NCBI GenBank assembly: GCA_028820655.1
Contig: JAPPIK010000002.1
Span: forward strand, 1-64,000
DNA length: 64,000 nucleotides
Direction of reading: 5' to 3'
From: Candidatus Poribacteria bacterium
GTDB taxonomy: Bacteria; Poribacteria; WGA-4E; JAJDTR01
Positions 972 to 33,757 of the stretch are shown one piece after another (the first letter of the stretch is position 1; each line of letters starts with the position of its first letter). The position numbers and the translations under genes were made by a program. The notes below the pieces were generated by a model. That model searched no databases and was not told where the DNA came from. It saw only the letters and a program-made list of their open reading frames with translations.

Positions 972-1808
972 CTAATACTTGGTCGATTTGAGCCCAGCCC
1001 ATGTAGTCGCCATTTTGTCATGGGGATCGACCGCTCGAAATCCCAGCAACTTTTCTAGTCCTTGCTCCATGAGGGTATTGACTTCCTCTTCTGTTAGCCC
1101 CCGATTGAAAACTACGACATCATCGACAACTCCATGCGTGCCTAGACTGAGGCCGCCCAGCCAAGTGGCTCCAATGTGTAATTGCTGGGAGGGATTAAAA
1201 GAGGGAGTGTGTCCTCCAACCGGATTCTTGCCGTACGCTACCCCGTCCACATACTGAGTGAGGTCCGCCCCGTCGTAAGTGCCTACTGCATGATGCCATT
1301 TGCCATCCGTTATCACTATGCCGCGCGCTTGAACATCATCAAATGGGTTCGTTGTTGTGAATCCAACGGTCACCTGTTCCCGCATCCACATTGAAAAATT
1401 CCGATTTAGACCCCCACCCCAACTTTCCTTGCTAACTATCATGTTGCAACAGTCACCGATGAGTTTTTCAGTTTTAACCCATGCGCCAACGGCAAATTCT
1501 CTAAGATCCATCTTATCGGAGTGTGGAATCGTTGCCGCATTCCAACCTTGCCCCGCCTGCCCTACCTGAAGCCCCGCCCCCCAAACTCCATTAGCCCATT
1601 TCGGCTTCTGCCGAAACTCACCATCATTGCCATTGCCAGAAATATCGTTTAGGGTTCCCTCCGCCACTTGTGCGATTATTCCGTCTCCGGCTGCAAAGGT
1701 AAACGCCATAACGACATCCATTCTCTCAATCTCGCCGTAGGATAGTTGAATTGCGGTGAACAGGACCGCGAAAGTCGAAAACGTTGATTTCGTCGTGGAT
1801 CCAATCAT
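972..1808 (-). CDS. LamG-domain (concanavalin-like) secreted protein
   Basis: This 278-aa protein has an N-terminal signal peptide (TFAVLFTAIQLSYG, residues about 10-25) followed by one LamG/laminin-G-like jelly-roll domain. Diagnostic features are the AFTFAAGDG opening, DISGNGNDG, GVWGAGLQV, FAVGAWVKT, GKWHHAVGTYDG, QYVDGVAYG and a final DDVVVFNRGLTEEEV helix. Such domains bind carbohydrate or protein ligands outside the cell; the ligand is unknown. It ends in MATTWAGLKSTKY, a form of the tail shared by the full-length LamG proteins here. It starts 7 bp after the stop of the LamG gene at 1816-2622, so the two are probably co-transcribed. The ribosome site before its ATG is weak, which suggests translation follows from the upstream gene. 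Confidence 0.85.
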   Translation of the reverse strand: MIGSTTKSTFSTFAVLFTAIQLSYGEIERMDVVMAFTFAAGDGIIAQVAEGTLNDISGNGNDGEFRQKPKWANGVWGAGLQVGQAGQGWNAATIPHSDKMDLREFAVGAWVKTEKLIGDCCNMIVSKESWGGGLNRNFSMWMREQVTVGFTTTNPFDDVQARGIVITDGKWHHAVGTYDGADLTQYVDGVAYGKNPVGGHTPSFNPSQQLHIGATWLGGLSLGTHGVVDDVVVFNRGLTEEEVNTLMEQGLEKLLGFRAVDPHDKMATTWAGLKSTKY

Positions 1809-1815
1809 CGTAGAC

Positions 1816-2622
1816 CTACTTCGAACTCTTTATCCTGCCCCACGTGATAGCCAGTTTTCCACTAATCTCTACGGAATGCGCCAATCCGCCCCGTGCTTCA
1901 AAGTTCTGCTTGATTTCTTCCTCGGTCAGCACGCGTTTGTAAACGCGAATCTCGTCCAGAATTCCTTTCCATCGCTCTCCGCCAGGCCTTCTTCCAATGT
2001 AAAACGGACTCTTATTGTCAATATTCTCTTTCCCTTGAGAATCCGATGGTACGCTGCGCACCGATTCGCCATTTACAAATAACTCGACATCGCCCTTCCG
2101 TTCGAAGACGCCAACAACGTGCGTCCACTGCTCAAAACGCGTCATACCTTCGAGGACGCGGCTTGCATTACCCTTCCCGTCATTTGCGTAGGGTTGAAAT
2201 CCATCCGAGATGTTATGCTCCAGCATATATCCGACATCGCCGCCGTCTTTCTTGTCAATAATGCGCATGGATGAGCCGGTGTTTTTCGGGAATGCCCAAG
2301 CTTCGAGGGTAAAATCGGTTCTCGCGCCGAAATCCAGACTACCATCTGCAGGATCGCCAACGTTGACAGATTGATTGCCCCCGTTAAATTCCATGCCCTC
2401 GCCAATTTTACCCTTTACAACTTTGGGATCGCCCTCAATCTTGCCATTGTTCGCCCCCCAAACGTCCTTGACGGTTTTGCCTTCTATTGTTTCTTGATCG
2501 AAGGACCAGTAGCTAATCAATCCTTCACTGACCGCCCTCTCTCGTCCGAGCGCTGCATCAATCCGCCAAACCAATGTTCCTAGAATCACCAACATGAGAG
2601 TTACCGTGTCTTGCATTTTCAT
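1816..2622 (-). CDS. LamG-domain secreted protein
   Basis: The gene encodes 268 aa from the ATG at 2622, chosen because AGGAG lies about 9 bases upstream and the reading begins with a signal peptide (TLMLVILGTLVWRIDAALG). The frame is open further upstream but without a ribosome site or a plausible signal peptide. The LamG domain spans about residues 30-235: GLISYWSFD, DVWGANNGKIEG, GMEFNGGNQSVNVGD, FTLEAWAFP, WTHVVGVFER, VELFVNGE, FYIGRRPG, LDEIRVYKRVLTEEEI. The protein ends in GKLAITWGRIKSSK, the shared LamG tail. It is more divergent from its two neighbours than they are from each other. It is probably the first gene of a LamG operon running leftward. Confidence 0.85.
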   Translation of the reverse strand: MKMQDTVTLMLVILGTLVWRIDAALGRERAVSEGLISYWSFDQETIEGKTVKDVWGANNGKIEGDPKVVKGKIGEGMEFNGGNQSVNVGDPADGSLDFGARTDFTLEAWAFPKNTGSSMRIIDKKDGGDVGYMLEHNISDGFQPYANDGKGNASRVLEGMTRFEQWTHVVGVFERKGDVELFVNGESVRSVPSDSQGKENIDNKSPFYIGRRPGGERWKGILDEIRVYKRVLTEEEIKQNFEARGGLAHSVEISGKLAITWGRIKSSK

Positions 2623-2808
2623 CCTAGTTTTTCTCCTAATATCATTCTCTTGGAAATCTATTACCCAGAACATCGACGCAACATAAAACATGGTAAATCT
2701 AACGGCGAGTTTCAAAAAGCTTGTAAGTACACGTCCAGTAGTTAAAATGGTAACCTACATCACCAGTTCCTTGTTTACGTACCTGTGGTAGTTCGTATGA
2801 CGCTTAGG

Positions 2809-4539
2809 TCACGTTTTGGTCGCGACGGGTAACAGGATATGCGACGGGTACTTGGCGTTGTGATAAATGGTTTGATTGGCTAATCGGCTCGGTACATCCT
2901 CTCCGATTGGCGCGCCGGTGTTGGGATTCAGGTCATAGGCAGGGTACAAGGACGATGTGACCACGAGGCTCAGCCTTTGACCTCGCCGGAAGACCATTGA
3001 AGTTGCTAGGAATTCAATTGTATATCTGTACACTTCACCCGGAGAGATTGGGGATGGCTGCGGGCTGTCAATCCGGGCTGCACCTGCTCGATAGGAGGCG
3101 CGCATCACAGCCGACGAGATTGGAATCGACTTGCCATCCGGCAAGGCAATACACAGCAGAACAATCCAATCGGTGTCCACACAATCACTAGCAGCATACA
3201 ACGTGATGAACGCCGTACCGGTCACTTCAAGCTCTTCTTTCAGCGGCGCGCTAGAATAAACTACCGTGTCCTCACGATGTTGCGCGTAACGATAATCCAT
3301 TGTCAGTACATTAACGTCGGTTGGAGGTAACGGCGATTCCGGATCGAGCACCGAAGGAACGGGGTCCTCAGGATCATATACGTAGTGGTCGCTCGGTTCA
3401 TTTCGAGGCATCGCCGTATCAAGGGTTCCGTCTCCTTCAAATGTGTTCGCTCTACCGCCGCTGTGGAGATAGAATTTGAGATTCTTCATGTTTGGCATCG
3501 GCCATGATTCCTCCTCTCGCCAGACGTTTTTCCCCATGGTGAATATCTTGACCTTCGAGTCGGCATCATGGCCGTTATCCTCATCTTTCAGCCAATGGTC
3601 GAACCAGCGTAGGTGGATAGATTTTAGGTCCGGCACTGCCTCCTGCGTGAAGGTTAAGTCCCCCAACTGCGCTTGAGGATTAGAGGTTCCGGCGTGATCC
3701 CAAGGACCAATGAGAAGCCACTGTTTACCCCTTGCCGGAGAGCGGGCTACCATCTGATTGTACATATACAGCTCGCCCCATTGACAATTGTCAAACCACC
3801 CAGTGATGTGTAAGGTTGGTATATCCACCTTATCGAAATAATCTTCGAATGACATTTGTTGCCAATATTCATCGTAGGTGTTGTGTTCAAGCCAAGTGCG
3901 CCAGTAGGTATTCGTACGCCCCACTGCCTTGTCGACATCTTTGAGCGGGCGAGTGCGAATTATTTTGTTGAAATTGTATGGCGAGGCTACCCCAGGTTGA
4001 TGTGAGGAGAGAGGTTCAAACGGGTAATGCTGCATGGTGCGTCCTCCCGTCATGTTTAACCACCGAAACTGAAATACGGGGAACTTTCCGTTCATGTAAT
4101 TTTCATCGTGCATCCAACGCATGCCCCCCGTTGCAGTGCTGACTACCGTAACGAGATGTGGCGGACGTTCTCGTGCAGCGAGCCATTGCACCGTGCCGCC
4201 GTACGACACGCCCATCATGCCAATTTTTCCGTTAGACCAAGGTTGACCCGCGATCCACTCGATGGTGTCGTAACCGTCCTTTCCCTCATTTACTCTTGGT
4301 TCAAAGTGACCCTCCGAATCAAAGCGGCCTCGCACGTCCTGAATCACAACGACGTATCCCTCACCGCTGAAATACTGAGCAATCTCGACAAATCGCGGAG
4401 CGATGTTATCGTAAGGGGTACGCAGAAGAATTACGGGGTATCCCACCTCGGCGGCCGGCAGATAGATATCGGCAGATAGTTTGACGCCATCACGCATAGG
4501 GACAGGGGTATCCCACATAAACCGGATGTCGTCGTCCAT
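2809..4539 (-). CDS. CocE/NonD family hydrolase (X-Pro dipeptidyl-peptidase S15-like)
   Basis: This 576-aa alpha/beta hydrolase belongs to the CocE/NonD (peptidase S15) family, whose members cleave acyl or amide bonds by a Ser-Asp-His triad. The nucleophile elbow GVSYGG places Ser at residue 112. The segment HITGWFDN holds the likely catalytic Asp and GPWDHAG the likely His. The N-terminus (PVPMRDGVKLSADIYLP, TPYDN) and the oxyanion-region DVRGRFDSEG are typical. A C-terminal jelly-roll domain (about 390-570; FITLYAASDCVDTDWIV, GQRLSLVVTSS) matches the family's X-Pro C-domain. AAGGAG precedes the ATG at 4539. I see no signal peptide, so it is likely cytoplasmic. The substrate cannot be read from sequence. 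It lies alone between the ceramidase-like and LamG genes on the same strand. Confidence 0.9.
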   Translation of the reverse strand: MDDDIRFMWDTPVPMRDGVKLSADIYLPAAEVGYPVILLRTPYDNIAPRFVEIAQYFSGEGYVVVIQDVRGRFDSEGHFEPRVNEGKDGYDTIEWIAGQPWSNGKIGMMGVSYGGTVQWLAARERPPHLVTVVSTATGGMRWMHDENYMNGKFPVFQFRWLNMTGGRTMQHYPFEPLSSHQPGVASPYNFNKIIRTRPLKDVDKAVGRTNTYWRTWLEHNTYDEYWQQMSFEDYFDKVDIPTLHITGWFDNCQWGELYMYNQMVARSPARGKQWLLIGPWDHAGTSNPQAQLGDLTFTQEAVPDLKSIHLRWFDHWLKDEDNGHDADSKVKIFTMGKNVWREEESWPMPNMKNLKFYLHSGGRANTFEGDGTLDTAMPRNEPSDHYVYDPEDPVPSVLDPESPLPPTDVNVLTMDYRYAQHREDTVVYSSAPLKEELEVTGTAFITLYAASDCVDTDWIVLLCIALPDGKSIPISSAVMRASYRAGAARIDSPQPSPISPGEVYRYTIEFLATSMVFRRGQRLSLVVTSSLYPAYDLNPNTGAPIGEDVPSRLANQTIYHNAKYPSHILLPVATKT

Positions 4540-4751
4540 GATGGCTCCTTCTATTTGCGAAGTTTAGTCTATATTTAGACACGTCGTCGAGTGCTAAAGC
4601 GTTCTATCCCGGGACCCACCAGATTTCAAATCCATCAGGTTGCCAGCGAAATATACGATGAAACTACGTTTATCGCATTGACATGGTGCGCAATTGCTGG
4701 AGGTCTTGGAAACAAATTGAGCACTTGATGCACGAACACTCAATAACTGGC

Positions 4752-6032
4752 TCAATTTGCCCAAAGAGACATGATAGCGCCTTTGATTGCTTCTTCTGTA
4801 CCGATATCTAGCGACGTATGGAGTACACGGACGTTGTGCGACCACAACGACGGGAATGCCCCCGCTTCGTACCCGCCTTTGTCGCCCCGCGCCAGTTCTT
4901 CATCTGTGGCAACATACGTCACCATTCCGTTGGTGTCGCCAAAAACCATTGTATTCGTGAACGGAGATTTTTCGGATACCCACAGTTCATACTCAGCGAA
5001 AGGCTCGTGGGACATCGTTAGAAGACACCATTCCGATCCCATCATTACAGCGTTAATATCAAACCGCAGTTCCGGCTGTTCGCCTCGTTCAATGGCTTCC
5101 TTGATCCCTTCGAGTTGCTCCTTTCGATGGGCATAGGCGTGGAGATCGAGACTCTTGAGTCGGGTGCAGGTTTCCTCCCACTGTTCCATCGATGGTAGCT
5201 TCTTCGTGGGTAGCGTAATACGTATGGACTCCACCGTCAGTTTGTCGGCTTTAATCGCCGCAGTCGCGCGCAGCGTTTGTAGCACGGCATCACCCAATTT
5301 CCTTCCCGCCTCCTCCGCCTTTTTCCACCCGCTCCTCAAAGGGTAGCCATTGATGTTGCCACAGCACCCTTGAGCGAACATCGCCACAACGCCGTGGCCT
5401 AAGGTTTCCTCGATGCGCTGCACGGCAAAGCCGGGAAAGTCGGCCCCGGTTAGGCTGCTGGAGTTATGGACAATGACGGGATGGGCAGCATGTTCGAATA
5501 GCACCGCAAGTGTGTTACCTCCGTCCACCCTAACCTGCAGGACATTTGCCCAAGGCACAATGGCGGCAGTTTCGTTCACCGCCATAACCGTTACGCCAAA
5601 CTCGTCTGCCAAACGACGGTTAAACCCAATTTGCACAGGTGCTTGTCCGGCGTGTAAAGACGCCGGAATACGGTTAGCGTATGCTTCCTCCACGGCATCC
5701 AAGATTGAGCGCTCAACGAGTTCAATCCACTCCTTCTCATGCGGCTCCTCGGGGAAATCGACGGTTCCCGGCGCCGAATGTGTCTGTGAGAAGTTGAGAA
5801 GGTTGTGCTTTATCCCGGTGCGTTCGTCAATCCGTCTCCGCATTTGATCGCAAAACTCGAAACTCCCGTTCAAAAGGTCGATGCACACAATTGCCACTGT
5901 GGTTTGCCCATCGTCCAGTACGAGTGACTTCACGAACAGAGGGTCATGGATTCCCGCACTATATCGCGTGTGGTCCGCAAGTCGTGTGCGTGTAGGCGGC
6001 GTGATATTCTTGCGACTTACTCCAGCTTTCAA
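4752..6032 (-). CDS. Neutral/alkaline ceramidase-like protein (PF04734-type), putative zinc ligand altered
   Basis: This 426-aa protein resembles the N-terminal catalytic domain of neutral/alkaline non-lysosomal ceramidases and related metallohydrolases. The start appears to be TTG at 6032 with AAGGAG about 10 bases upstream. The ATG next to that site is out of frame, and the reading from TTG (KAGVSRKNITPP) matches the MRAGAS start of the paralogs. There is no signal peptide, unlike two paralogs. Motifs: VCIDLL, NFSQTHSAPG, FEHAAHPVIVH, MFAQGCCGNINGYP, GSEWCLLTMSHEPFAEYELW and TYVATDEE. The paralogs read HTH where this protein has Q83-T-H85, so the first metal-binding His of the family is replaced by Gln. 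Activity may differ or be lost. It is divergent from the DUF6785 gene at 6887. Confidence 0.8.
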   Translation of the reverse strand: MKAGVSRKNITPPTRTRLADHTRYSAGIHDPLFVKSLVLDDGQTTVAIVCIDLLNGSFEFCDQMRRRIDERTGIKHNLLNFSQTHSAPGTVDFPEEPHEKEWIELVERSILDAVEEAYANRIPASLHAGQAPVQIGFNRRLADEFGVTVMAVNETAAIVPWANVLQVRVDGGNTLAVLFEHAAHPVIVHNSSSLTGADFPGFAVQRIEETLGHGVVAMFAQGCCGNINGYPLRSGWKKAEEAGRKLGDAVLQTLRATAAIKADKLTVESIRITLPTKKLPSMEQWEETCTRLKSLDLHAYAHRKEQLEGIKEAIERGEQPELRFDINAVMMGSEWCLLTMSHEPFAEYELWVSEKSPFTNTMVFGDTNGMVTYVATDEELARGDKGGYEAGAFPSLWSHNVRVLHTSLDIGTEEAIKGAIMSLWAN

Positions 6033-6886
6033 GTGCTTTCATCTCCTTTTTGCATGTAGGTTAGATGCAATAGCCGCTCCAAAACTTGTTGTCTTGCCCG
6101 TCGCACTGTGTCCCTCGGGCAACCTAATTCTTCCTATATATTCTTATCTCGACTCTGTATATTTAATCGGCAGAGCAGACGGTGTCATTCAAGCGTTAAA
6201 AATAGCGGGGGAGATTTTAGCCATCTGGCCTTTTGAGTTGACCATTGAAAAAGTCGGTAGCGGTTTCCAATATTATCACGGGTTTGGTGTTGTAAGGCTT
6301 TCCGATTGACCCAACAGTAGTACTTTTGTACTGAGTCGAGCCTTGAAAAGAGTCTCAATACATTGATAGAACATTGTACATGAGGCCTAGCGTGCAATGA
6401 CTTACTACACTACGAATTATCCCACACTCTACAATTCCTGTAAAACACTTTTTCACAACAAGCCATGAACATGCCCTGGCGTGAGTATGTCCTCCCCAAA
6501 GTAGCCATTGTGATACTTGCGAGGATTTAGAGCCAAGATCCTCTCCGCGATTGTGCTAAAGGATATGACTAAAGCTGCAGAAGGACATCCCTACCACTGA
6601 CAGAACATCTGCTCTGTCTCGCATAAGCGGACGCAATCGGGAGATCGCTACTACAGTGAATGTAACGTCGAAACAGGAGATGAATCTGGCGAATCTTTGG
6701 TTCTTGAGAAGCCAATGGCGTATTATCCTAAACATATTGACGGCATTTTTTCCCTGTGATAAACTCAAACGTCAGACACGCCTTAAACTGTAGCACCGTC
6801 CTACCTTGAATCTGCCCACTATCCTTCTGGGCAATGTGGTTTATCTCGACGATCACACTCTTCCTTCGCAGATATTAGAGACTGAA
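6033..6886. other. Long intergenic region between divergent genes
   Basis: These 854 bp separate the minus-strand ceramidase-like gene from the plus-strand DUF6785 gene and must hold both promoters. I found no strong -35/-10 pair. A small inverted repeat (AGTAC-TTTT-GTACT) lies near 6316. The frame of the next gene is open back to a TTG at 6806 but has no ribosome site there. No RNA gene or coding sequence is convincing. Confidence 0.4.
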
Positions 6887-8806
6887 ATGAACCCACCGCA
6901 TCAGACCACTGAAAAAGTCACTTCATCCATTCCTGTCCGAGCTATTCTCATCGGACTGTTGCTCATCCCTATAAATGCTTATTGGATTACCGTCGTTAGC
7001 GAACTGTGGGCCACGATGATCGGCATGACCGCAACAACCCTGTTTTTCAATGCGGTCTTCAATCTGTTCTTTCTAACGCTTATCAATATTCCCCTCCGAA
7101 AGTTCCTTCCCAAAGCCGCATTCTCGCGAACCGAAGTCCTCGTTGTCTATGTTATGCTCGTAATGCTATCAACCGTCTGCGGGCACACGATGATGACCTT
7201 CGTTATCGGAACGTTGACTCGTCCGTTTTGGTTTGCGACAGCGGAAAACGAATATGCAGACCTTTTCCACACGTATATTCCATCGTGGATTACGGTTTCG
7301 GACAAACGGGTGTTGAGAGGTTTCTTTGAAGGTGGCGAAACCTTCCATACGGCGGAACACTTCACCACATGGCTAACTCCCGTACTTGTGTGGACAGGGA
7401 TTATATTTGCTATCTTCTTTTCGTTCATTTGTGTGAACATCATCATCCGCAAACAGTGGACCGAACAGGACAAATTGAGCTACCCCATCATTCGAATCCC
7501 GATTGCGCTGACGACGCCGCGGACAATGTCTCGCCCGCATCTTTGGATCGGTTTTTCGGCATCGGCGCTGATCGAGATTCTCAATGGTCTTCACCACCTC
7601 TTTCCCATAATTCCGGGAATCCCGTTACACCACGCCATGTTTTTTTCAGAAAAGCCGTGGCACGCGTTAGGTTGGATGAGATTCTCGTTTAGCCCGTTTG
7701 TAATCGGATTAACATTCTTTGCGCCATTGGATTTGGCATTCTCAGTTTGGTTCTTCTACCTTTTCTTCAAAGCACAGCAGGTAATCGCTTATATGCAATC
7801 TGCGTCGCTCCCGTTCTTCACTCACGGTGTCTACGGGACGGATCAGGGGCTCGGTGCATGGACTACACTAGGTATTCTGTCATTGTGGATAACAAGGCGG
7901 CACCTTAACCTAGTCTGGAAAAGACTGATCGGCCGCACACACTTAGACGATTCAACCGAACCACTAAGGTACCGATCCGCGGCTCTTGGACTGATACTTA
8001 GCATGGCATTTCTCGTGATTCTGCTCCGTAAGGCAGGTTTATCTCTGTCTGTCATGCCATTCTATTTCGCGATTTACCTATTGATGTCGATTGCCATTAC
8101 GCGGGTCCGCGCCGCACTCGGGCCCCCTTTCCATGAGGTTGTCTTCACCCACCCGCAAGGATTTATGGTAAACGTGGTGGGAACCCGTGCACTCGGCGCG
8201 AGTAATCTGACGATACTCTCTTTTCTATACCCCTTCAATAGAGATAACTCCTCACACCCGATGCCGAGCCAGTTAGAAGCCTTCAAGATCGCCGAGCGGA
8301 CGGGAATAAACAACCAACTTCTGTTATCGGGCATGGTGCTTGCCTTGGTAATTAGTATCCTAGCTTCGTTCTGGGCATATTTCCAGATTATGTACGAACA
8401 CGGCGCGGCTGCGAAAGCACGAGGTTATATCCTCGGAATCGGCCGAGAGACGTTTACACAATTGACCTCATGGCTCCAGCACCCAAAGCAGCCCGACTAT
8501 ACCGCTACGCTGTTCATAGCCCTGGGGGCGGCTTTCTCGGTGTTCTTGATGGCGATGCAGCGGCGATTTATCTGGTGGCCATTTCACCCTGGCGGATACG
8601 CTTTGGGTGCGTCGTGGGGCATGGTGCACGTGTGGGCATCGGTCTTGGTTGGCTGGGCTATCAAGGGGATCATCCTAAAATATGGCGGATTGCGAGCATA
8701 TCGAAACGGCGCTCCGTTCTTTCTCGGACTAATTTTGGGCGACCATATTGTGAGCTGCACATGGTCAATTATAGGTGCGGTGTTTCAAGTACCGACATAC
8801 ACATAA
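6887..8806 (+). CDS. DUF6785/DUF6784 family polytopic membrane protein
   Basis: This 639-aa inner-membrane protein has about 12-14 predicted helices and matches what I recognise as the DUF6785 (N-terminal) plus DUF6784 (C-terminal) pair. Landmarks shared with the three paralogs here: IPINAYWITVVSE in the first helix, CGHTMMTFVIGTL, the cytosolic loop RKQWTEQDKLSYPI, ITRVRAALGPPFHE, HPMPSQLEAFKIAERTG and WWPFHPGGYALG. I chose the ATG at 6887 because the fourth paralog starts just before the same first helix. A transporter-like role is plausible from the topology, but no substrate is known. The nearest relative in the window is the gene at 34276. It is followed by a ceramidase-like gene on the same strand. 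Confidence 0.8.
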   Translation: MNPPHQTTEKVTSSIPVRAILIGLLLIPINAYWITVVSELWATMIGMTATTLFFNAVFNLFFLTLINIPLRKFLPKAAFSRTEVLVVYVMLVMLSTVCGHTMMTFVIGTLTRPFWFATAENEYADLFHTYIPSWITVSDKRVLRGFFEGGETFHTAEHFTTWLTPVLVWTGIIFAIFFSFICVNIIIRKQWTEQDKLSYPIIRIPIALTTPRTMSRPHLWIGFSASALIEILNGLHHLFPIIPGIPLHHAMFFSEKPWHALGWMRFSFSPFVIGLTFFAPLDLAFSVWFFYLFFKAQQVIAYMQSASLPFFTHGVYGTDQGLGAWTTLGILSLWITRRHLNLVWKRLIGRTHLDDSTEPLRYRSAALGLILSMAFLVILLRKAGLSLSVMPFYFAIYLLMSIAITRVRAALGPPFHEVVFTHPQGFMVNVVGTRALGASNLTILSFLYPFNRDNSSHPMPSQLEAFKIAERTGINNQLLLSGMVLALVISILASFWAYFQIMYEHGAAAKARGYILGIGRETFTQLTSWLQHPKQPDYTATLFIALGAAFSVFLMAMQRRFIWWPFHPGGYALGASWGMVHVWASVLVGWAIKGIILKYGGLRAYRNGAPFFLGLILGDHIVSCTWSIIGAVFQVPTYT

Positions 8807-8865
8807 ATTACACCGAGAGGGTTTACCAGGAGACTATCCTTGAGGTCTCCCAAAGTCGATTACGA

Positions 8866-8894: not shown

Positions 8895-8931
8895 GTTCCC
8901 GATGCCGGTGATGGAAAAAGGAGGAATGGAT

Positions 8932-11832: not shown

Positions 11833-12627
11833 ATGAGCATGAGATTCCGATGGCTCGGAACGCCTATCGTGTTTTTGATGATCAGTTCGATGAATTGGTG
11901 CTACGCCAAGATAGACCCTGAGACACTGGTAGGTATGTGGCTGTTTGACGACAAGCGCAACCCCGGGAAAGATTCCTCCGGATATGAAAACGACGGAGTT
12001 CTGAAAAACGGCGCCGAATGGACAAAAGACGGACCCTTTGGCGGCGCAGTGTCATTCGATGGCCAAGACGACTATGTTGATTGCGGTCGAGCCGAAAGTT
12101 GCGCCGGATTGGACAATTTTACTGTTGTCGTCTGGTATCTCCAAGCACTGGATTTCGATTCAGGTCCGCTCGTATGCCGAGGCACCGGAAACGGCGAGTG
12201 GAACTTCCACGCCGGTATAAGAGGTCCCGGAAAGCTCTTTAACGAGATAAACATCAACGGCAAGTTTATGGGCGGAGCTTCGGGGGTAACGGGAGCCAAA
12301 GCGGGAACCTGGAACCACGGAGCCTTTACCTATGACGGGAAACGCAGGAAAATGTTCATGAACGGTAAACTGGACTGGAAGGGCGGCGATGAACCGGGAA
12401 AGATCCGTCCTACGACTGAGCATGTTTTGATTGGCGCATGGTCGATTCGTGCCTTGGAGCAGTGGTACAACGGAAAAATCGACGAAGTTGCCATTTTTAA
12501 CGTTGCTCTGGAAGAGGACGACATTCAAACCATCAAGGAGAAAGGGCTGAACGAAGCGCTTGGCAGGCTCTCCGTGTCTTCGAGGGGACGATTGGCAACA
12601 ACTTTGGGACGAGTCAAGTCCAAGTAA
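11833..12627 (+). CDS. LamG-domain secreted protein
   Basis: This 264-aa secreted protein begins with a signal peptide (GTPIVFLMISSMNWCYA, cleavage near residue 25) and has one LamG domain: VGMWLFDD, DSSGYENDGVL, GGAVSFDGQDDYVDCG, FTVVVWYLQ, NHGAFTYDGK, KMFMNGKLDW, VLIGAWS, GKIDEVAIFNVALEEDDI. It ends in GRLATTLGRVKSK, a variant of the shared tail with Leu in place of Trp. AAGGAGG lies 9-12 bases before the ATG at 11833. It is the only LamG gene here embedded on the plus strand among the ceramidase-like and DUF6785 genes. The binding ligand is unknown; carbohydrate or extracellular matrix is typical for the fold. Confidence 0.87.
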   Translation: MSMRFRWLGTPIVFLMISSMNWCYAKIDPETLVGMWLFDDKRNPGKDSSGYENDGVLKNGAEWTKDGPFGGAVSFDGQDDYVDCGRAESCAGLDNFTVVVWYLQALDFDSGPLVCRGTGNGEWNFHAGIRGPGKLFNEININGKFMGGASGVTGAKAGTWNHGAFTYDGKRRKMFMNGKLDWKGGDEPGKIRPTTEHVLIGAWSIRALEQWYNGKIDEVAIFNVALEEDDIQTIKEKGLNEALGRLSVSSRGRLATTLGRVKSK

Positions 12628-19739: not shown

Positions 19740-20245
19740 CGTGAAGGATTTGATAGATTCGTAGTTGAGAATCTCATCTTCCGCATAATATACTTCTGAT
19801 ATTCTGCCATCTAATGGGATTTTACTATTGACATCTCACTCCGCTGGTGTGAAAACCATTCCGAGAAGGGATGCTTTTTCAAAACCTGTCATAGATCGTG
19901 ATTGAGCGTCAATTGAGGAATGAAATGTTCCGACAGAAATAATGGTGTGCTATCAACATACCGCTCCTCTGGAGCGGATGACACAAAGCCAACCAGTTGC
20001 ATAGAGCACAGATAGAGTTGTCAATACACCAATTAGTACCTAGAACGAATCGTAAGTTTATTGTTGAAACTTGCTTGGGTAAGATCTTCCAAGTGGGATG
20101 TAACACGGAGGATTGTTCGTAAAACTGTGTTTAGTGTAGCAACGATTACGATGCTTTGAATCGGATTTGTGTCGCTACACAATGAATTGAACCATATAAA
20201 CAATGATCCGGGAGAGTTTTGCTGGCGCGGAAGTTCACACCCACC
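19740..20245. other. Intergenic region between two DUF6785 genes
   Basis: This spacer of about 500 bp separates two paralogous membrane-protein genes. It has no credible gene, repeat or terminator. The downstream gene's frame is open back to a TTG at 20219, preceded closely by GGGAG, so its true start could lie inside this interval. Confidence 0.35.
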
Positions 20246-22270
20246 ATGCGCGAAAATCCAAAGTCGATCACCCACCAATCGAATTTGACGGCGAGAGCCT
20301 GCAAGCTTCTGTTCATCGCGGTTGTCATGCTCCCACTCAACAATTTATGGGTTGTTGACACGGGAATTACGGGACACGGCACGAACTTTACCCGGGTGTC
20401 GCTGTTCATGAACGTTGTCTTCGTTACCTTCGTATTGAGCCTGATAAATCTGCTGCTCAAGCGGTTTAAGGCAAAATTAGCGCTAGCGACGGGTGACATG
20501 GTGCTAATCTATTCTATGCTGTGCGTCTCCTCCGCGATAGCGGGGCACGACATCATCCAGCGCATGTTTCCGCTTATCGGATATGCGTTTCATTTCGCTA
20601 CTCCCGAAAACGATTGGCAAGCTCTTTTCCACAGATATGTTCCCGATTGGTTAGTTGTCGCGGAAAAATCCGTGTTGGTCGGGTACTACAAAGATCGCGA
20701 ACCAATTTACGCGAACACGTTATACATTCCCGAATACCTCCAGACGTGGATCGGACCTTGCCTCGCGTGGTCTACCGTAATTTTCGCCGTGCTGGCTTGT
20801 ATGCTCTGTATCAACGTCATCGTTCGAAAACAGTGGTCGGAACGCGAACGTCTTGCCTATCCTCTCGCCCACATTCCGCTTCAAATTATCGACAGCGGTT
20901 CCAAGATTTTTTCCAATCGTTTGCTATGGGTCGGATTTAGCGTCGCCGTTATATTCAACCTTATTAACGGGTTGCATTTTCTCTTTCCGTCGGTGCCGGG
21001 AATATTTTACGGGGGGTTCGACCTTGGAAGATATTTCACCACGAAGCCGTGGAACGCTCTGGGCGAACTCCCGATCCGTTTTCATCCGTTTGCTATCGGA
21101 TTGGCATTCTTCATGCCGCTCGATCTCGCCTTTTCCTGCTGGTTTTTTTACTGGTTCTGGCGGATTGAACAGGTGGCCGGAGTTGCTCTCTATAGCAGCG
21201 GAATGCTCGGTGGGCTTGCGGGATATGGGGACAGCATCGCAGGGTTTCCGTATGTGTGGGCACAGTCTATCGGCACATGCGGCGCGATTCTGTTAATGAC
21301 GCTGTGGGTGTTGCGATTTACCGGAAAGGACGTGTTATTTGGCATCTTCCAGAGACCACGCATCACCGGACCTTCAGGATTGACCGGCAACGGGAGTGAG
21401 AATGCCGCGTCCCAAATCGCGGAAAACCGTGCGGAGATGCGGCAGTATCGGAGGGCAATCATAGGAATTATCGCCAGCCTGAGCTATCTGGTGGGGTTCT
21501 GCTACATCGCAGGCATGTCCGTTTGGGTTGCCACTGCGTTCTTCGTCATCCTCTTCGCCATTTCAACCGTAGTGACACGAATCCGCGCCGAAGCGGGATA
21601 TCCTATGCACGATTTCGTGTTCCGTCCGGACGAGATCATGGTGGCGGGGCTAGGCACAAGGGCAATTGGCGCGCGAAATCTGACGCTATTTTCCTACCTT
21701 CACTTTCTCGTCTACGCACAGCGCAGCAACCCGCAGCCGCAGCAACTTGAGGCATTCAGGCTTTCCGACCGGATGAATCTGGGAATGGACAAAATGTTGA
21801 TTGCCGGCCTTCTAATTGCCGCCGTGGCAGGGTCCATTGCCGCTTGCTGGGCTTACCTGCATACCGCTTATCGCTACCCGGTACTTACTTTCCACCCAAG
21901 CGATCCAGTATACACGCGATTGAAGAATTGGCTGATTTATCCCAAGGAAATAGATGTCAATTCGTTAGTCTTCATGGGTGTAGGGTTCGGGGTTGGGATG
22001 TGGTTTATGATCATGCGTCGATTGTTCCTATGGTGGCCCTTTCATCCAGCAGGTTACGTCATCGGCGGCACATGGTCGCTCAATCTCTTGTGGTTCTCTA
22101 TTTTCGTAAGCTGGGCGGTAAAGTTAATCGTACTTCGCTTCGGTGGACGCAGGCTGCATCAACAGGTTGGGATATTTTTTATCGGTCTTGTCCTCGGCGA
22201 ATTTGTTGCGGCAAGTTCGTGGGGAATTGTCGGCACGATAATGGGCGAGAGAACGTATGGGTTCATCTGA
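20246..22270 (+). CDS. DUF6785/DUF6784 family polytopic membrane protein
   Basis: This is the longest of the four paralogs (674 aa from the ATG at 20246, or 683 aa from a TTG at 20219). It keeps the family landmarks SAIAGHDIIQRMFPLIG, RKQWSERERLAYPL, VVTRIRAEAGYPMHDFVFRPD, NPQPQQLEAFRLSDRMN and WWPFHPAGYVIGG. It is more divergent than the pair at 6887 and 34276. A polar, Asn/Ser-rich loop around residues 370-405 (TGPSGLTGNGSENAASQIAE) is an insertion relative to the shorter paralogs. The start is uncertain because neither candidate has an ideal ribosome site. Its substrate is unknown. Confidence 0.78.
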   Translation: MRENPKSITHQSNLTARACKLLFIAVVMLPLNNLWVVDTGITGHGTNFTRVSLFMNVVFVTFVLSLINLLLKRFKAKLALATGDMVLIYSMLCVSSAIAGHDIIQRMFPLIGYAFHFATPENDWQALFHRYVPDWLVVAEKSVLVGYYKDREPIYANTLYIPEYLQTWIGPCLAWSTVIFAVLACMLCINVIVRKQWSERERLAYPLAHIPLQIIDSGSKIFSNRLLWVGFSVAVIFNLINGLHFLFPSVPGIFYGGFDLGRYFTTKPWNALGELPIRFHPFAIGLAFFMPLDLAFSCWFFYWFWRIEQVAGVALYSSGMLGGLAGYGDSIAGFPYVWAQSIGTCGAILLMTLWVLRFTGKDVLFGIFQRPRITGPSGLTGNGSENAASQIAENRAEMRQYRRAIIGIIASLSYLVGFCYIAGMSVWVATAFFVILFAISTVVTRIRAEAGYPMHDFVFRPDEIMVAGLGTRAIGARNLTLFSYLHFLVYAQRSNPQPQQLEAFRLSDRMNLGMDKMLIAGLLIAAVAGSIAACWAYLHTAYRYPVLTFHPSDPVYTRLKNWLIYPKEIDVNSLVFMGVGFGVGMWFMIMRRLFLWWPFHPAGYVIGGTWSLNLLWFSIFVSWAVKLIVLRFGGRRLHQQVGIFFIGLVLGEFVAASSWGIVGTIMGERTYGFI

Positions 22271-28336: not shown

Positions 28337-28441
28337 GCATGATGCACTACTCTACAACTAACAAATTGAACATCGACCGGTACAGCGTTGTGACCCCTTT
28401 GTCTCCTGCACCGCGCCGCTGGCGAAATCGAGATGTAATTC

Positions 28442-29329
28442 TCATTCTCCTTCCCGACGCGGCCTCACCACACTAACACCGTCGTCTTCAATCATTGGGT
28501 GATGATATATATATGGCGGTTCGAGGGCCGCCTGTTGTGCTTCGGATAGCTCAGACACCCATTCCGGCAATTGGGTCTCATAGGTGCCGGGAACATAGGT
28601 AAGGTACTTCGGAGTGTACCGGAATAGCAATGTCCGCCGTTCGCCCTTCCCTTTCCAAGGAAGGGTGCCGTGGCTCGTAGCTTCATTAAAGATAACGAGG
28701 TCTCCCGCCTTGAGGGTCGGCTGAAACACCAATTCTTTGTTGGCTTCCCACGTCATAATATCTTCTGGCGCTTCAAAGTTGGATTTGTGACTGCCCGGTA
28801 TAACACAGAGACCGCCATCGCCAGGATTCACGTCGGTCAACGCATACTGGAAGACTATCAAACCGCAACGCATACGACCGTTCTGGTAAGCATAGAACCG
28901 GGACCCGCTAAACGTTAGGTTGCCGGAGCCGTGAAGTTTCAATCCCTCGCAGCCATCCACGGAATTGAGCAAGTCTACTCCGTGGTCCAGTTTCCAGCCG
29001 CGCCCAAGCATAGTGTTGAGGTACGGAATCGCATTGGGATGAGCCAGCATGTCGCGGAAGGGTTGGCACCAGGGCTGTTCCCACGTCAACATGCCCTTGT
29101 AATGCCGGAATGGACTGAAAATTCCCTCAAGCGGCCTGCCTTCCCAGTTGCCGCTTATGGCGTTTGGATTTCCGAAATCCCCGCGCTTGTCAGTGTTCGC
29201 ATCTAACGCCTCGTTCAGCGCGTTAACCTCTTCTTGCGAGAGAATACCCCTGACCACCAGATAGCCTTGAAGATCGAAGAGATAACACTCTCGATCATCC
29301 ATAGTCGCGTAATCCACTTGTTCCTTCAT
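28442..29329 (-). CDS. Phytanoyl-CoA dioxygenase (PhyH) family protein
   Basis: This 295-aa protein resembles the PhyH family of Fe(II)/2-oxoglutarate oxygenases. The N-terminal FDLQGYLVVRGILSQEEVNALNEALD is typical. The core has QYALTDVNPGDGGLCVIPGSHKSNF, AGDLVIFNEATSHGTLPW (probable distal iron His) and GERRTLLFRYTPKYLTY (probable 2-oxoglutarate Arg). I do not see a clear HxD pair in the expected place before GGLCVIPGSH; the region reads FYAYQNGRMRCGLIVFQY. The iron site may therefore be atypical. GGAGA precedes the ATG at 29329. It is probably cytoplasmic. Many symbiont genomes carry large PhyH families with unknown substrates. It lies just downstream of the LamG array on the same strand. 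Confidence 0.82.
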   Translation of the reverse strand: MKEQVDYATMDDRECYLFDLQGYLVVRGILSQEEVNALNEALDANTDKRGDFGNPNAISGNWEGRPLEGIFSPFRHYKGMLTWEQPWCQPFRDMLAHPNAIPYLNTMLGRGWKLDHGVDLLNSVDGCEGLKLHGSGNLTFSGSRFYAYQNGRMRCGLIVFQYALTDVNPGDGGLCVIPGSHKSNFEAPEDIMTWEANKELVFQPTLKAGDLVIFNEATSHGTLPWKGKGERRTLLFRYTPKYLTYVPGTYETQLPEWVSELSEAQQAALEPPYIYHHPMIEDDGVSVVRPRREGE

Positions 29330-29454
29330 CAGTCATCATCTCCAATTAAGGACGCTGCTGCGGTGAGAAGATTCATGCAATGCCCACGAAGAGAAGATTG
29401 TGCCAGTGAGAACCTAATGATCACCCTATTGGCTTTTACCACATGTGACAATCT

Positions 29455-30399
29455 TCATTCCGCTTTGAGTTGTGCCCAGGTTGTCGCTAATTTGCCCCTT
29501 GGATCAACGGGTCGGTAACCGTATTTCCCTGCCAATCCCAGTTCCATAATACTCTTGAGTGTTTCCGGTGCCAACCCAACGTTGTAAAGTGCGACTTCGT
29601 CCACAACACCTCCAACCCCTTGAATTCCTTTTTCAAAAACATGCTCGCCTACAAGAGGCTGCGGTTGTTGTTGTGCGCCAATATACAACGGTGCTTTTAC
29701 CTTATGTAGCTTGGGTGTTATCCCTTGAATTTTCTTATTCTCTATCTTTGAGAGTTCGTTTCCATCCACAAATGCGCTTAACGTGTTCCCATCGAACGCG
29801 CAGGCGACGAAATGCCATTCGTCATCCGTGACCTTCTTTGTTCTCTCGGTCTCGAGGGGATTCTTTTCCGGAAACGCGTTCCAAAATCCACATGCGAACG
29901 ATCCAGGACTCCCATCGGCGCGTATCCACATCGAGTAATTCCGATTCTTCACGGCGGCAACCTTATTGGGAGCTATCAACAACACCTCTTTATCGACAAT
30001 CATTTGTGCCGGTTCAGCGTCGGTCTTGACCTTTTTCTGTGGACCAATAAGCTTCGCCACCTTTATCCATGCGGTTATGGTGAACGATTGAAGACTGAGA
30101 TCATCATGATGCGGAACTTGGACGTGCCCCCAATCTTCATCGTCCGAGAGAAACTCCAATGCCATACCGAACCTACCCCTGCGCCATTTAACGTCGCCGA
30201 CAATCCGTCCATCATGCCCATTGCCGGTGCGATCTTCGACCACACCAGCCGCAACTTGATTTAATTTTCCGAATCCTTCGTCAAACAGCCATGCTGCAAT
30301 GGGAGTGACTTCCAAGTCGTCCTGAGCATGACTGAAAGGTGGGATGACGAGGCAACTAGCTAAAAAAACGAATAGACTCACTAAAATGAAGATATTCAC
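29455..30399 (-). CDS. LamG-domain secreted protein
   Basis: This 314-aa protein starts at a GTG (30399) with GGGAGG about 8-9 bases upstream. It has a signal peptide (FILVSLFVFLASCLVIPPFSHA) and a LamG domain: AAWLFDEGFGKLN, DRTGNGHDGRIVGDVKWRRG, ALEFLSDDEDWGHVQVPHHDDL, FTITAWIKV, WHFVACAFDGNTL, AFVDGNELS, LYIGAQQQP, GVVDEVALYNVGL. The chain ends in GKLATTWAQLKAE. It is the most downstream of four co-directional LamG genes (33757 to 29455), all with strong Shine-Dalgarno sites. Closest relatives are the genes at 30496 and 32834, which share the AWLFDEGxGKLN start and GLAGKY near the end. Confidence 0.88.
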   Translation of the reverse strand: MNIFILVSLFVFLASCLVIPPFSHAQDDLEVTPIAAWLFDEGFGKLNQVAAGVVEDRTGNGHDGRIVGDVKWRRGRFGMALEFLSDDEDWGHVQVPHHDDLSLQSFTITAWIKVAKLIGPQKKVKTDAEPAQMIVDKEVLLIAPNKVAAVKNRNYSMWIRADGSPGSFACGFWNAFPEKNPLETERTKKVTDDEWHFVACAFDGNTLSAFVDGNELSKIENKKIQGITPKLHKVKAPLYIGAQQQPQPLVGEHVFEKGIQGVGGVVDEVALYNVGLAPETLKSIMELGLAGKYGYRPVDPRGKLATTWAQLKAE

Positions 30400-30495
30400 G
30401 GGGCTTCCCTCCCTTTTGCCGTGCTAACATAGGTTTGGTTTCGGTTAAGCGACGAAGTATAGGAGAACTATGTCATGCATGCATCAATATGAAAC

Positions 30496-31461
30496 TTACA
30501 TTTTTTTTGCTTTGATTTTCCCCCACGTGGTTGCCAATTTCCCCGTCAAATCGACAGATCGATAGCCATATTTCCCAGACAACCCCAATTCCATGAGATT
30601 CTTGATTTCGGCTTCTGGCAAACCGGAGGCAAAAAGGGCGACCTCGTCGATAAGTCCGCCTAATCCGTCCCTACCCTTCTCAAAATCCAGCGGGGTACCG
30701 GGAGCCACATCGACCCGGTTTAACTGTTGTATCGGTCGGGCTCCAATAAACACCGGCATTTCGTGTTTTGTATGAGGTTTACCTAGCAAGCCATTCTTCT
30801 TGTTCTCCGATTTACCGACCTGCTTTCCGTCGACATAAGCTATCAACCACGGTGGGTCGTATGCGCAGGCGACAAATCGCCATTTGTCATCCGTTACGGC
30901 TGCCGTACCTCTTTCGATCCATACCCCTTTATCGCTCGGGAAACTTATAAAGAACCCGCACGAAAGATTGCCCGGACCGTTTGGCGGAAAGGCACCGTGA
31001 ACGTTTTCACGCGAACTGATCCACATAAAATAGTTCGTGTAATCCATCCCCTTGGGAGGAACATTCACCACCTTGCCAACTATCGACTGTAACGGCGGAA
31101 CAATATCTTTGACTTTAATCCACGCCGTCATGGTGAATTCTCTCAGCGACAAGTCTTCATGATGCGCCACTCTGATGAAAGACCACGATGTTCCATTCGG
31201 GTCTCCCGGATCCAGCCCGAACTGTAGGGCGGTGCCGTATCGTCCCCACCGCCATTTCGGCGATCCCACTACTTCGCCGTCATGACCATTGCCCGAACTG
31301 TCCTTTACCATTCCGGTCGCGCTGCGGTTGAGTCTCCCAATCCCTTCGTCAAATAGCCATGCGGCGATTGGCTGTTCTCCGCCCTGGCTAAAAGCCAAAG
31401 GGGACATCACAAAGAAACTAACTGACATGGCCACCAAACTCAAAATTGCCGTGGATTTCAC
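30496..31461 (-). CDS. LamG-domain secreted protein
   Basis: The gene encodes 321 aa from a GTG at 31461, preceded by AGGAGGAG. It has a signal peptide (ILSLVAMSVSFFVMSPLAFS) and a LamG domain: AAWLFDEGIGRLN, DSSGNGHDGEVVGSPKWRWG, ALQFGLDPGD, FIRVAHHEDLSLREFTMTAWIKV, WRFVACAYDP, AYVDGKQVG, VFIGARPI, GLIDEVALFASGLPEAEI. The protein ends in GKLATTWGKIKAKKM. An intrinsic terminator at 31573-31607 separates it from the upstream LamG gene, so it probably has its own promoter within 31462-31572. Its function is probably extracellular ligand binding; the ligand is unknown. Confidence 0.88.
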   Translation of the reverse strand: MKSTAILSLVAMSVSFFVMSPLAFSQGGEQPIAAWLFDEGIGRLNRSATGMVKDSSGNGHDGEVVGSPKWRWGRYGTALQFGLDPGDPNGTSWSFIRVAHHEDLSLREFTMTAWIKVKDIVPPLQSIVGKVVNVPPKGMDYTNYFMWISSRENVHGAFPPNGPGNLSCGFFISFPSDKGVWIERGTAAVTDDKWRFVACAYDPPWLIAYVDGKQVGKSENKKNGLLGKPHTKHEMPVFIGARPIQQLNRVDVAPGTPLDFEKGRDGLGGLIDEVALFASGLPEAEIKNLMELGLSGKYGYRSVDLTGKLATTWGKIKAKKM

Positions 31462-31572
31462 TTTGTTCTCCTCCTATTGCGATAGCCCTCAATAATACAT
31501 CAAAACCGGTCCGCATGACCCTGTGAAGTGCTTAGATTATTGTTTCGTTCACAGAATTGGTGATGTCGTGCC

Positions 31573-31607
31573 AAAAAAAAGCATCGAGAGCGAACTCCCG
31601 ATGCTTT
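31573..31607 (-). terminator. Rho-independent terminator after LamG gene (minus strand)
   Basis: Read on the minus strand, AAAGCATCG pairs with CGATGCTTT, extended by GAG/CTC past one mismatch, with a 4-base loop. A run of eight T (complement of 31573-31580) follows directly. It lies 26 bases past the stop of the LamG gene ending at 31633 and should end its transcript. Confidence 0.85.
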
Positions 31608-31632
31608 GAAATGCTGACATTGCAGGCTGGCT

Positions 31633-32583
31633 TTACTGCAGCCGTTTGATGTCGCCCCATTGGGTAGTCAACTTGCCAACCGATTCAACGGAAGTCGCAG
31701 CGCAATCAATTCCAAGAATGTCCATGCCCTCATTGGAGCATGCTCCACTTGCCATGATTGCCGCGATATCGTCCTCATCCAGGGCGTATGTGGTAATGAC
31801 GATCTCGTCCGCCCTTGTTCCGAGTGGTAAGCCGTGACCCGTTCCGCCCGGAGCACCTCCATACAGCGCGCCTATGCTGATTGGCGACAAGGTAGCGGCT
31901 GGACCATTTGCCGTGTTAGGTTCCGATGGATGGGGATTTACTCCCACTTCCTCGCCATCTATATAGACTCTTACGTTTTGCCCATCATACGTGCCGCCAA
32001 GGTGGCGCCACGTGCCATCATGGATATGATCCGAGTCAGGAGAATTGCCCACGCGGTCACCGCCGCCACCCAGGTCGCCATTGTCTCGCCAGCCGAAGAG
32101 CAACTTGCTCGGGGCGCCCCCAGGATGATGATCCCAAAGCGAGAAATTTCGCGGCAACTCCGAGGCGCATCCCCAACAAGATTTGTCTACAAGAAAACTG
32201 TCGTTCCCGATCTTACCGTCTAGCATAAACCACCCCATGACGGTCATGGTATGCATTGCATGAGATGGATCGGGAGCAATTTTTACGGTCTTGAATGCCT
32301 CAACGACCTCAGACGGCCCGAGACCGATTCCTCCTCCAAACTTGCCATCCACCCAGTTTGCGCCTGCACTCAACAAGCCATCATTTCCGGTGCCCGACAT
32401 ATCGGTTGACACGTCGCCCGATCCCTCTTCAAAGGTTAACACGACAACTGCTTGCTCATTCAGGTTGGGGGTTTCGGTCCAACCTGGCACCCAATCGGGA
32501 AAATCAACGTTCTCGTCGACTGAATATGCAAACGGCAACGATACCATAAGACTTGCGAGAACGATTAGCATGCCCAATCTCAT
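31633..32583 (-). CDS. LamG-domain secreted protein, divergent member
   Basis: This 316-aa protein starts at the ATG at 32583, set by AGGAGG about 7 bases upstream; the open frame continues to 32616 without another ribosome site. A signal peptide (LIVLASLMVSLPFAYS) precedes a LamG domain: AVVLTFEEGSGDVSTDMSGTGNDGLLS, GGIGLGPSEVVEAFKTVKI, MTVMGWFML, WRHLGGTYDGQNVRVYIDGEEVG, ISIGALYGG, ADEIVITTYALDEDDI. Its core is the most divergent of the LamG set, with extra Cys residues (CWGCASE, ACSNEG, IDCAA). Even so it ends in GKLTTQWGDIKRLQ, preserving the shared tail. A strong terminator follows. Confidence 0.86.
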   Translation of the reverse strand: MRLGMLIVLASLMVSLPFAYSVDENVDFPDWVPGWTETPNLNEQAVVVLTFEEGSGDVSTDMSGTGNDGLLSAGANWVDGKFGGGIGLGPSEVVEAFKTVKIAPDPSHAMHTMTVMGWFMLDGKIGNDSFLVDKSCWGCASELPRNFSLWDHHPGGAPSKLLFGWRDNGDLGGGGDRVGNSPDSDHIHDGTWRHLGGTYDGQNVRVYIDGEEVGVNPHPSEPNTANGPAATLSPISIGALYGGAPGGTGHGLPLGTRADEIVITTYALDEDDIAAIMASGACSNEGMDILGIDCAATSVESVGKLTTQWGDIKRLQ

Positions 32584-32833
32584 TATATTTCCTCCTATTT
32601 TGTAACAACAATTCAAAGTTATACCGATTTTACGGATTAGTTGATTTTTTCGCGCATTCAGATAGTTCCTGCTTACGCATTGGGGGCAGTATAGCCGTTT
32701 GTTAGTGCTCTGTCAATAAAAAAACGACATTGTTCGGACCATCGTACAAAATCCCTTTAAGAGTGTTTCGTTTTTTCTCGCCACTTCCATGCCCCGCTTC
32801 CAGCGATTCACAGAAGTGAATGTCATGATTGCA

Positions 32834-33757
32834 TCACTTCGCTTTCAGGGAAGCCCATGTGGTCGCCAATTTGCCGACCCGATTGACGGCGAGGAATTCA
32901 TATTTGCCGGCCAATCCCATTTCCATGATACCTTTAATCTCTTCTGCTGTTAAGCCGGTGTTGAAGAGTGCGACTTCGTCGACCAACCCGGAGATTCCCT
33001 CAACGCCTTTTTTGAAAGGGCGTTGATTGCCCTCCCAGCCGTGCAATGCTCGAGCACCGATAAGAAGCGGGGCGCCCTTTGGCTTGTTGGCTCTGGGGCG
33101 CAATCCTTGGTCCACTTTGTTCTCTTCGGCGGCTTCTTTCTTTCCATCAATGTACGCCGTCATGGTTATTCCGTCAAAACTACAGGCTATGAAATGCCAT
33201 TTATTGTCTGTCACCGGTCGCGTTTTTTTGACACCGATATGCTTTACCGCCGGAAAAGTGGACCCGATTGCACACGCGAAGTGTCCGGAATCTCCCTGTC
33301 CTCCCAATTGTCCATCGGCCGGTGTACGTATCCAAAGGGCATAATTTCGCAGATCGGGATTCACTTCCCGATTAATTATCATTTGTAGGGGTTCCAGCGC
33401 CGCGGCCACCTTTATCCACGCGGTGAAAGTAAATTCGCTAAGGTCCAAATCTTTGTGGTAGGGCACTTTGATGTATGACCAACCGGTACCTTCGTTGTCG
33501 TCCGGATCCAGCCCGAACTGCATGGCGGCACCGAATTTGCCCCAGCGCCATTTCGGAGACCCGACAATCTCACCGTCAAACCCGTTACCGGAATTGTCTT
33601 TGAGGGTGCCTTTGGCAACGCGATTCAATTTTCCGAGGCCTTCATCAAAAAGCCAGGCACCGAGGGGACGTACCTCCCCCTGTGCATATGTCTTCGGCAC
33701 AATGGCAAAAAAACTTACGCAACCAACTAGGAAAATCGACCGTGTTAGGATTTTCAC
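32834..33757 (-). CDS. LamG-domain secreted protein
   Basis: The gene encodes 307 aa from a GTG at 33757 with AAGGAG about 7 bases upstream. It has a signal peptide (SIFLVGCVSFFAIVPKTYA) and a LamG domain: GAWLFDEGLGKLN, DNSGNGFDGEIVGSPKWRWG, AMQFGLDPDD, YIKVPYHKDLDLSEFTFTAWIKV, WHFIACSFDGITMTAYIDGK, LLIGARAL, GLVDEVALFNTGLTAEEI. It ends in GKLATTWASLKAK. It is the first gene of the four-gene LamG series running leftward. The spacer to the next LamG start is about 250 bp, so it may be transcribed separately. Confidence 0.88.
   Translation of the reverse strand: MKILTRSIFLVGCVSFFAIVPKTYAQGEVRPLGAWLFDEGLGKLNRVAKGTLKDNSGNGFDGEIVGSPKWRWGKFGAAMQFGLDPDDNEGTGWSYIKVPYHKDLDLSEFTFTAWIKVAAALEPLQMIINREVNPDLRNYALWIRTPADGQLGGQGDSGHFACAIGSTFPAVKHIGVKKTRPVTDNKWHFIACSFDGITMTAYIDGKKEAAEENKVDQGLRPRANKPKGAPLLIGARALHGWEGNQRPFKKGVEGISGLVDEVALFNTGLTAEEIKGIMEMGLAGKYEFLAVNRVGKLATTWASLKAK

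Follow-up and report, generated by a model that had tools for sequence, protein, structure and literature searches.

A short C-terminal tail shared by unrelated exported proteins of Poribacteria is a candidate sorting or docking tag

Results and discussion

Seven LamG proteins end in the same tail

The window analysed here, the first 64,000 nucleotides of contig JAPPIK010000002.1 from a Candidatus Poribacteria bacterium, raises a simple question: why do all of its full-length LamG proteins end in versions of the same few residues? A check of the ORFs confirmed the pattern described in the sequence-only reading, and the tail was found letter for letter at the C-terminus in 7/7 proteins. All seven match LamG_3 (PF13385), for which residue ranges are given here. 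On the reverse strand, the protein at 972-1808 (LamG_3 at residues 90-244 of 278; signal-peptide-like N-terminus) ends in AVDPHDKMATTWAGLKSTKY (975-1034; profile E=8.7e-7), that at 1816-2715 (111-269 of 299; modelled below) in SVEISGKLAITWGRIKSSK (1819-1875; E=2.3e-7), that at 29455-30399 (91-279 of 314) in PVDPRGKLATTWAQLKAE (29458-29511; E=1.7e-7), that at 30496-31461 (98-287 of 321) in SVDLTGKLATTWGKIKAKKM (30499-30558; E=1.9e-7), that at 31633-32616 (115-285 of 327) in SVESVGKLTTQWGDIKRLQ (31636-31692; E=6.6e-7) and that at 32834-33757 (94-275 of 307) in AVNRVGKLATTWASLKAK (32837-32890; E=1.0e-5). The protein on the forward strand, at 11833-12627 (76-232 of 264), ends in SVSSRGRLATTLGRVKSK (12571-12624; E=3.3e-5), with L for W and R for K.

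The consensus of the seven tails is [AS/P]V-x-x-x-[GD]-K-[LI]-[AT]-T-T-[WL]-[GA]-x-[ILV]-K, followed by a few residues. The shared ending had been recognised before, but its length had been put at 11-15 residues; the conserved unit comprises 16 residues, with [AS]V as its beginning and K six residues further on. The first 87 tails collected from the same genome with a regular expression follow the pattern [AS]-V-x-[PS]-x-[GD]-K-[LI]-[AT]-[TV]-T-W-[GA]-x-[ILV]-K, then 1 to 10 residues, and among them V is present in 80/87, the first K in 78/87, W in 85/87 and the last K in 85/87. A broken LamG copy next to the end of the contig (43-654, reverse strand) had been read as having lost the tail. That ORF breaks off in the middle of the LamG domain, with only 42 bases of contig left, and therefore allows no inference about its tail.

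Strict position and selection

A profile of the tail was applied to 6975 ORFs, that is, to all DNA fetched from the bacterium's own genome and from other Poribacteria. It gave 296 matches at E<=0.01, of which 295 lie no more than 13 residues from the stop codon. The same profile gave no matches in these 6975 ORFs when they were reversed, and none when their last 40 residues were shuffled. The first core DNA pattern had matched 32 times, compared to 9 for the reversed control. A set of 115 loci from other bacteria, nearly all of them Poribacteria, was chosen by the DNA pattern of the motif with stop codons playing no part in the choice, and here the tail was found within 12 residues of the end in 162/162 tail ORFs. 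The tail is thus far beyond chance.

Conservation is concentrated in this segment. In an alignment of 70 LamG sequences the tail is the best-conserved 16-residue window, at 3.12 bits per column vs 1.68 for the LamG domain. Across 147 tails, identity is 48% for residues and 59%, 68% and 36% for codon positions one, two and three, respectively, and all 147 tail DNA sequences are distinct. Since third positions are less alike than residues and every DNA sequence differs, the tail is conserved as protein and not as a recent DNA copy, and the codon pattern indicates that selection acts on its protein sequence. Recent DNA copying or gene conversion of the tails was rejected on the same figures.

Carrier proteins and their export

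The earlier reading had tied the tail to LamG proteins. A PF13385 search of the genome (5.9 Mb in 61 contigs) revealed 85 LamG places. Of the LamG ORFs read over their whole length, almost every small one has the tail at its end, and three large LamG-containing ORFs (750-860 aa) lack it. The tail also occurs well beyond this domain. Non-LamG carriers in the same genome include PD40 (TolB-like) propellers, BNR/sortilin-like propellers, a Kelch propeller, a cohesin-domain protein, a DUF3108-like protein and several proteins with no Pfam match, while carriers in other genomes include LamG, CBM9, F5/8C and 3-keto-disaccharide hydrolase-like proteins. With the tail removed, 153 carriers from other Poribacteria fell into 29 BLAST clusters (E<=1e-5), some of which may be remotely related, many carriers being beta-rich. 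Descent within a single LamG paralog family, one of two outcomes that had been named as speaking against a signal, was therefore not what we found, and it was rejected on the 29 clusters together with the PD40, BNR, Kelch, cohesin, CBM9 and F5/8 carriers. Carriers often stand in tandem arrays.

Of 162 carriers, 149 have a strongly hydrophobic stretch close to the N-terminus or a possible start, and most of the exceptions were fragments. The measure is one of simple hydrophobicity, not a trained predictor, and it also passes many membrane or exported proteins that carry no tail. Since 20 of the 29 non-tail ORFs in the window likewise pass, the count of 149 expresses compatibility with export and not enrichment. 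Strict C-terminal position, many unrelated carriers as judged by clusters and Pfam diversity, and N-terminal export signals as judged by the hydrophobic-segment count are the general features of a C-terminal sorting signal, and all three were observed. The check proposed with the sequence-only reading was whether the tail stands at the extreme C-terminus of several exported domains that are unrelated, and the result was strongly positive across many carrier families.

Distribution across genomes

A search of related genomes with the tail profile had also been proposed. All 59 Poribacteria genomes in a sample that spans the phylum contained matches, ranging from 36 to at least 150 each; a 19-position profile built from 72 tails matched at least 150 times in the bacterium's own genome. 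In a Planctomycetota sample, 57 of 59 genomes had no match and one had a single weak match. Good tails were found in the remaining one, G060, a metagenome-assembled genome (MAG) that entered the sample through the tail pattern search. With 71% identity between its LamG tail protein and one from Poribacteria, the G060 tails probably lie on contaminating Poribacteria contigs.

The second control phylum (labelled Pseudomonadota) gave no match in 51 of 56 genomes, one weak match in each of three, and several matches in G059 and G139. G059 is the MAG that brought this phylum into the sampling; in G139, approximately 10 good tails are spread over one 2.84-Mb contig. All tails of this second lineage are at extreme C-termini. 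Some of their carriers have ankyrin repeats and a weak metzincin-like match, and others have no Pfam match. A distribution confined to Poribacteria was at first supported by 78 of the 80 pattern matches listed, which came from this phylum, and by the Planctomycetota control, but was overturned by G139. The tail is universal in the sampled Poribacteria and sporadic elsewhere.

Comparison with known C-terminal signals

In the carriers that were scanned, the tail fell outside every Pfam and NCBIfam match. In its logic the tail is like the PEP-CTERM, LPXTG and type IX secretion system (T9SS) signals, but it lacks the defining features of each. The T9SS type A domain (TIGR04183 / PF18962) is likewise a C-terminal signal on many unrelated Sec-exported proteins; it occurs in the same genome as the tail, and in FG-GAP proteins the tail motif directly precedes it. 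That domain is about 60-100 residues long, folds as a beta-sandwich and contains motifs B, D and E, unlike the tail with its 16 residues and 1-10 more. A scan of four window carriers for TIGR04183 (NCBIfam, E<=10) gave no match, and the TIGR04183-bearing proteins of the genome are other proteins than these four. LPXTG (sortase) signals are also C-terminal signals on exported surface proteins, but the tail has neither an LPXTG motif nor a transmembrane segment. The encapsulation peptides of microcompartments and encapsulins combine a short conserved terminal peptide, possibly an amphipathic helix, with a flexible linker. Their cargo is cytoplasmic, in contrast to the tail carriers with their signal-peptide-like N-termini.

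PEP-CTERM, a short C-terminal homology domain on diverse signal-peptide proteins that is sporadic across phyla, was recognised from sequence before its machine was tested (PMC1569441). The tail shares this format and distribution, but its residue frequencies and hydrophobicity profile reveal neither the PEP motif nor the hydrophobic helix of a signal that is defined by a PEP motif, a transmembrane helix and a basic cluster (PMC1569441). The tail is also more numerous, with 36 to at least 150 copies per genome vs a reported median of eight for PEP-CTERM (PMC1569441). A search of the open literature for the tail core string, or for a Poribacteria sorting signal, found no mention of the tail. In the portion of Kamke et al. 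2014 (PMC3909097) considered here, the C-terminal sorting domains of Poribacteria are the long T9SS domain, and the short tail is not mentioned.

A probable sorting or docking tag

We consider it likely that this short C-terminal segment serves Sec-exported proteins as a tag for sorting or docking, because it combines an export signal, a folded domain, a flexible linker and a short conserved end on many unrelated carriers across a whole phylum. The carrier would cross the inner membrane by means of its N-terminal signal peptide, and its domain would then fold, leaving the tail hanging from the end on the flexible linker. A putative dedicated receptor in the envelope would bind the tail through its conserved residues (V, K, L, T-T, W, G, I and K) and either bring the carrier to its final location or retain it there, the cell surface or outer membrane being the most likely place; both the receptor and this destination are inferred. 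The earlier proposal of a sorting, attachment or assembly signal is supported for the three as a group by the C-terminal position on unrelated, export-compatible carriers. That the tail marks an undescribed sorting or surface-display system with its own receptor, present in all Poribacteria and sporadically in other bacteria, and with a cargo larger than the set of T9SS-domain proteins in the same cell, is plausible, though we put it slightly short of an even chance.

Every sampled Poribacteria genome encodes from dozens to over 150 exported proteins that bear the tail and are otherwise unrelated. The tail gives a sequence handle on how these bacteria arrange their many exported lectin-like and propeller proteins, which may face the host, Poribacteria often being prominent sponge symbionts. 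It turns many 'hypothetical' proteins into one cargo class, and its profile fills a gap in the protein-family databases searched (Pfam and NCBIfam). The tag reading also predicts a receptor that could be traced through comparison of tail-bearing genomes with genomes that lack the tail.

Relation to type IX secretion

The genome contains 78 TIGR04183 matches, and the organism also encodes homologues of the translocon on which T9SS cargo depends. A 2155-aa ORF matches TIGR04189 (SprA/Sov) with E=2.7e-44; its score of 151 bits does not reach the equivalog cut-off of 200. A PorV-like protein scores over its model cut-off, whereas two PorU-like ORFs of 2.1 kaa stay below the cut-off of the PorU sortase model, with E values of approximately 1e-85. 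An SprA homologue, again below the equivalog cut-off, was found in 40/40 Poribacteria vs 0/14 control genomes. By these matches homologues of the T9SS core are encoded in Poribacteria, in disagreement with the single-cell study of 2014 (PMC3909097), which describes TIGR04183 on eukaryote-like repeat proteins of Poribacteria and reports no structural T9SS genes. SprA, PorV, PorU and PNPF were also sought in the tail-bearing G139, with no match in 14% of that genome, a result that is neutral with regard to a T9SS link.

Among 68 proteins with the poribacterial C-terminal sorting domain (CTD), 22 FG-GAP proteins have their best tail-matrix window exactly 7 residues before the PNPF of that domain, as in AVEPFGLAVTTIGGIK-RSALFQNF-PNPF. 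These windows score 3.6 to 22 bits, with a background median of -10. A WD40-like protein bears PVEARDKQIVEWGQVKQNRLLQNYPNPF directly before its CTD (18.8 bits, PVEARDKQIVEWGQVK-QNRLLQNY-PNPF), and in some other WD40 CTD proteins TTWGxIK stands approximately 30 residues ahead of the CTD. The FG-GAP copies differ from the tail at K and W, usually having L in both places, so the motif has drifted in proteins with a CTD behind it. Tail and CTD may have overlapping roles, with the tail relaxing in the presence of a CTD; alternatively, the motif before the CTD may belong to the CTD junction. The 22 FG-GAP proteins are one family, so their adjacency may represent a single event. A relative combining FG-GAP and CTD was sought in viral contigs, and none was found there.

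These arrangements allow a different explanation of the tail itself, in which the motif is a T9SS junction, the segment just before the CTD and perhaps a PorU-like cleavage or attachment site, and tail-only proteins mimic the end of cleaved cargo, having lost the CTD or never had one. The 7-residue spacing in the FG-GAP proteins, the WD40-like protein and the T9SS core homologues all point this way, as does the cleavage-site motif located immediately N-terminal to the CTD in Prevotella (PMC11969387). We nevertheless regard it as unlikely. The motif is retained by at least 150 proteins of the genome, most of which have no CTD, so it is no mere vestige, and it is absent from roughly 40 of the 68 CTD proteins, so it is not needed for CTD cleavage in general. 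Moreover, no CTD remnant was present in any frame within 600 bases downstream of 154 tail-only stop codons. Readthrough or frameshift past the tail stop into a T9SS domain was rejected on the same search. The stop codons of tail genes are evenly mixed.

For the sorting or docking tag, a T9SS-like branch is the most likely neighbourhood, because the motif directly precedes the sorting domain in some proteins and the SprA homologue is present in 40/40 genomes. That the tail actually uses a T9SS branch is a tentative proposal, which we think somewhat less likely than not.

Assembly or structural roles

The tail could instead be an interaction peptide that docks secreted beta-rich domains on a common scaffold, such as a surface lattice or extracellular complex, in the fashion of cohesin and dockerin, with no part in routing. 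A short exposed tail on a flexible linker, the many lectin-like and propeller domains and the frequent tandem arrays of carriers would all suit such an assembly tag, but so many unrelated carriers are more typical of routing, no scaffold with repeated receptor domains turned up incidentally, and we think an assembly tag improbable. It may also be that the tail has some general structural function which exported proteins share.

The tail and the LamG fold

It is highly improbable that the tail is an ordinary last LamG strand or was inherited within one close LamG paralog family: LamG proteins do account for most window carriers and approximately half of those found in the genome, but the modelled tail follows the jelly roll and a trailing helix, many carrier families are unrelated in sequence, and larger LamG-containing proteins lack the tail. 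In the seven window proteins the Pfam LamG_3 matches stop 30-42 residues short of the C-terminus, and a role as a LamG strand, the other outcome that had been named as speaking against a signal, was rejected on these domain limits and on the AlphaFold model. A second AlphaFold model, of a CBM9-like carrier, was poor overall and placed a strand at the tail with very low confidence. Modelling of a LamG protein had been suggested as a check, and the one at 1816-2715 was modelled with AlphaFold2 using 70 aligned relatives (mean pLDDT 82). Its jelly-roll strands occupy residues 66-259, mostly at high confidence, and are followed by a helix at 265-275 and a linker at approximately 278-287 with pLDDT below 50. 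The tail, at 287-297, is predicted as a separate helix (pLDDT approximately 64) that lies outside the jelly roll in this model and is probably exposed.

Type IX secretion homologues in Poribacteria

Homologues of three core proteins of type IX secretion (T9SS) were located in the window's own genome (G000; C-numbers denote its contigs and L-numbers the loci read), namely SprA-like at G000:C1:24490-28323 (L222, L262), PorV-like at G000:C4:164791-165372 (L274) and PorU-like at G000:C4:319810 together with C5:5413 (L263-L265). A SprA homologue was present in all 40 of the 40 Poribacteria genomes. Poribacteria encode T9SS core homologues, in contrast with a 2014 single-cell study, which reports that no structural Por genes were found in Poribacteria (PMC3909097).

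Distribution and form of tail carriers

An exception to the strict C-terminal placement of the tail was a 325 aa ORF on the minus strand of L062, in which a tail copy (SVPPDRGLATTWGQLK), scoring below the E-value threshold of the tail count, is followed by 25 more residues; this is possibly a frameshifted gene end. At window positions 43-654, 42 bases from the contig start, two stop codons break a LamG copy mid-domain.

Paralogous carriers (PD40 propellers, BNR-like propellers and LamG proteins) form long tandem arrays at L074 (G000:C7:27000-45198), L076 (G000:C61:21500-36500) and L042 (G000:C15:221000-231500). In a second lineage, labelled Pseudomonadota (genomes G139 and G059; L277-L288), about 10 tail proteins occur in one genome. 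Some of this lineage's tail proteins carry ankyrin repeats and a weak metzincin-like match, and several have two hydrophobic N-terminal segments.

Other genes in the window

A secretin-like protein (37002-38738, minus strand) matches Secretin_N four times and also contains a GspD N0 domain, with no secretin barrel match reported at the threshold used. Two copies of large DUF6785/DUF6784 family membrane proteins lie at 6806-8806 and 20219-22270. The urease alpha subunit gene (54170-55888; Urease_alpha and Amidohydro_1 matches) is immediately preceded by small ORFs whose agreement with the remaining subunits is in size alone.
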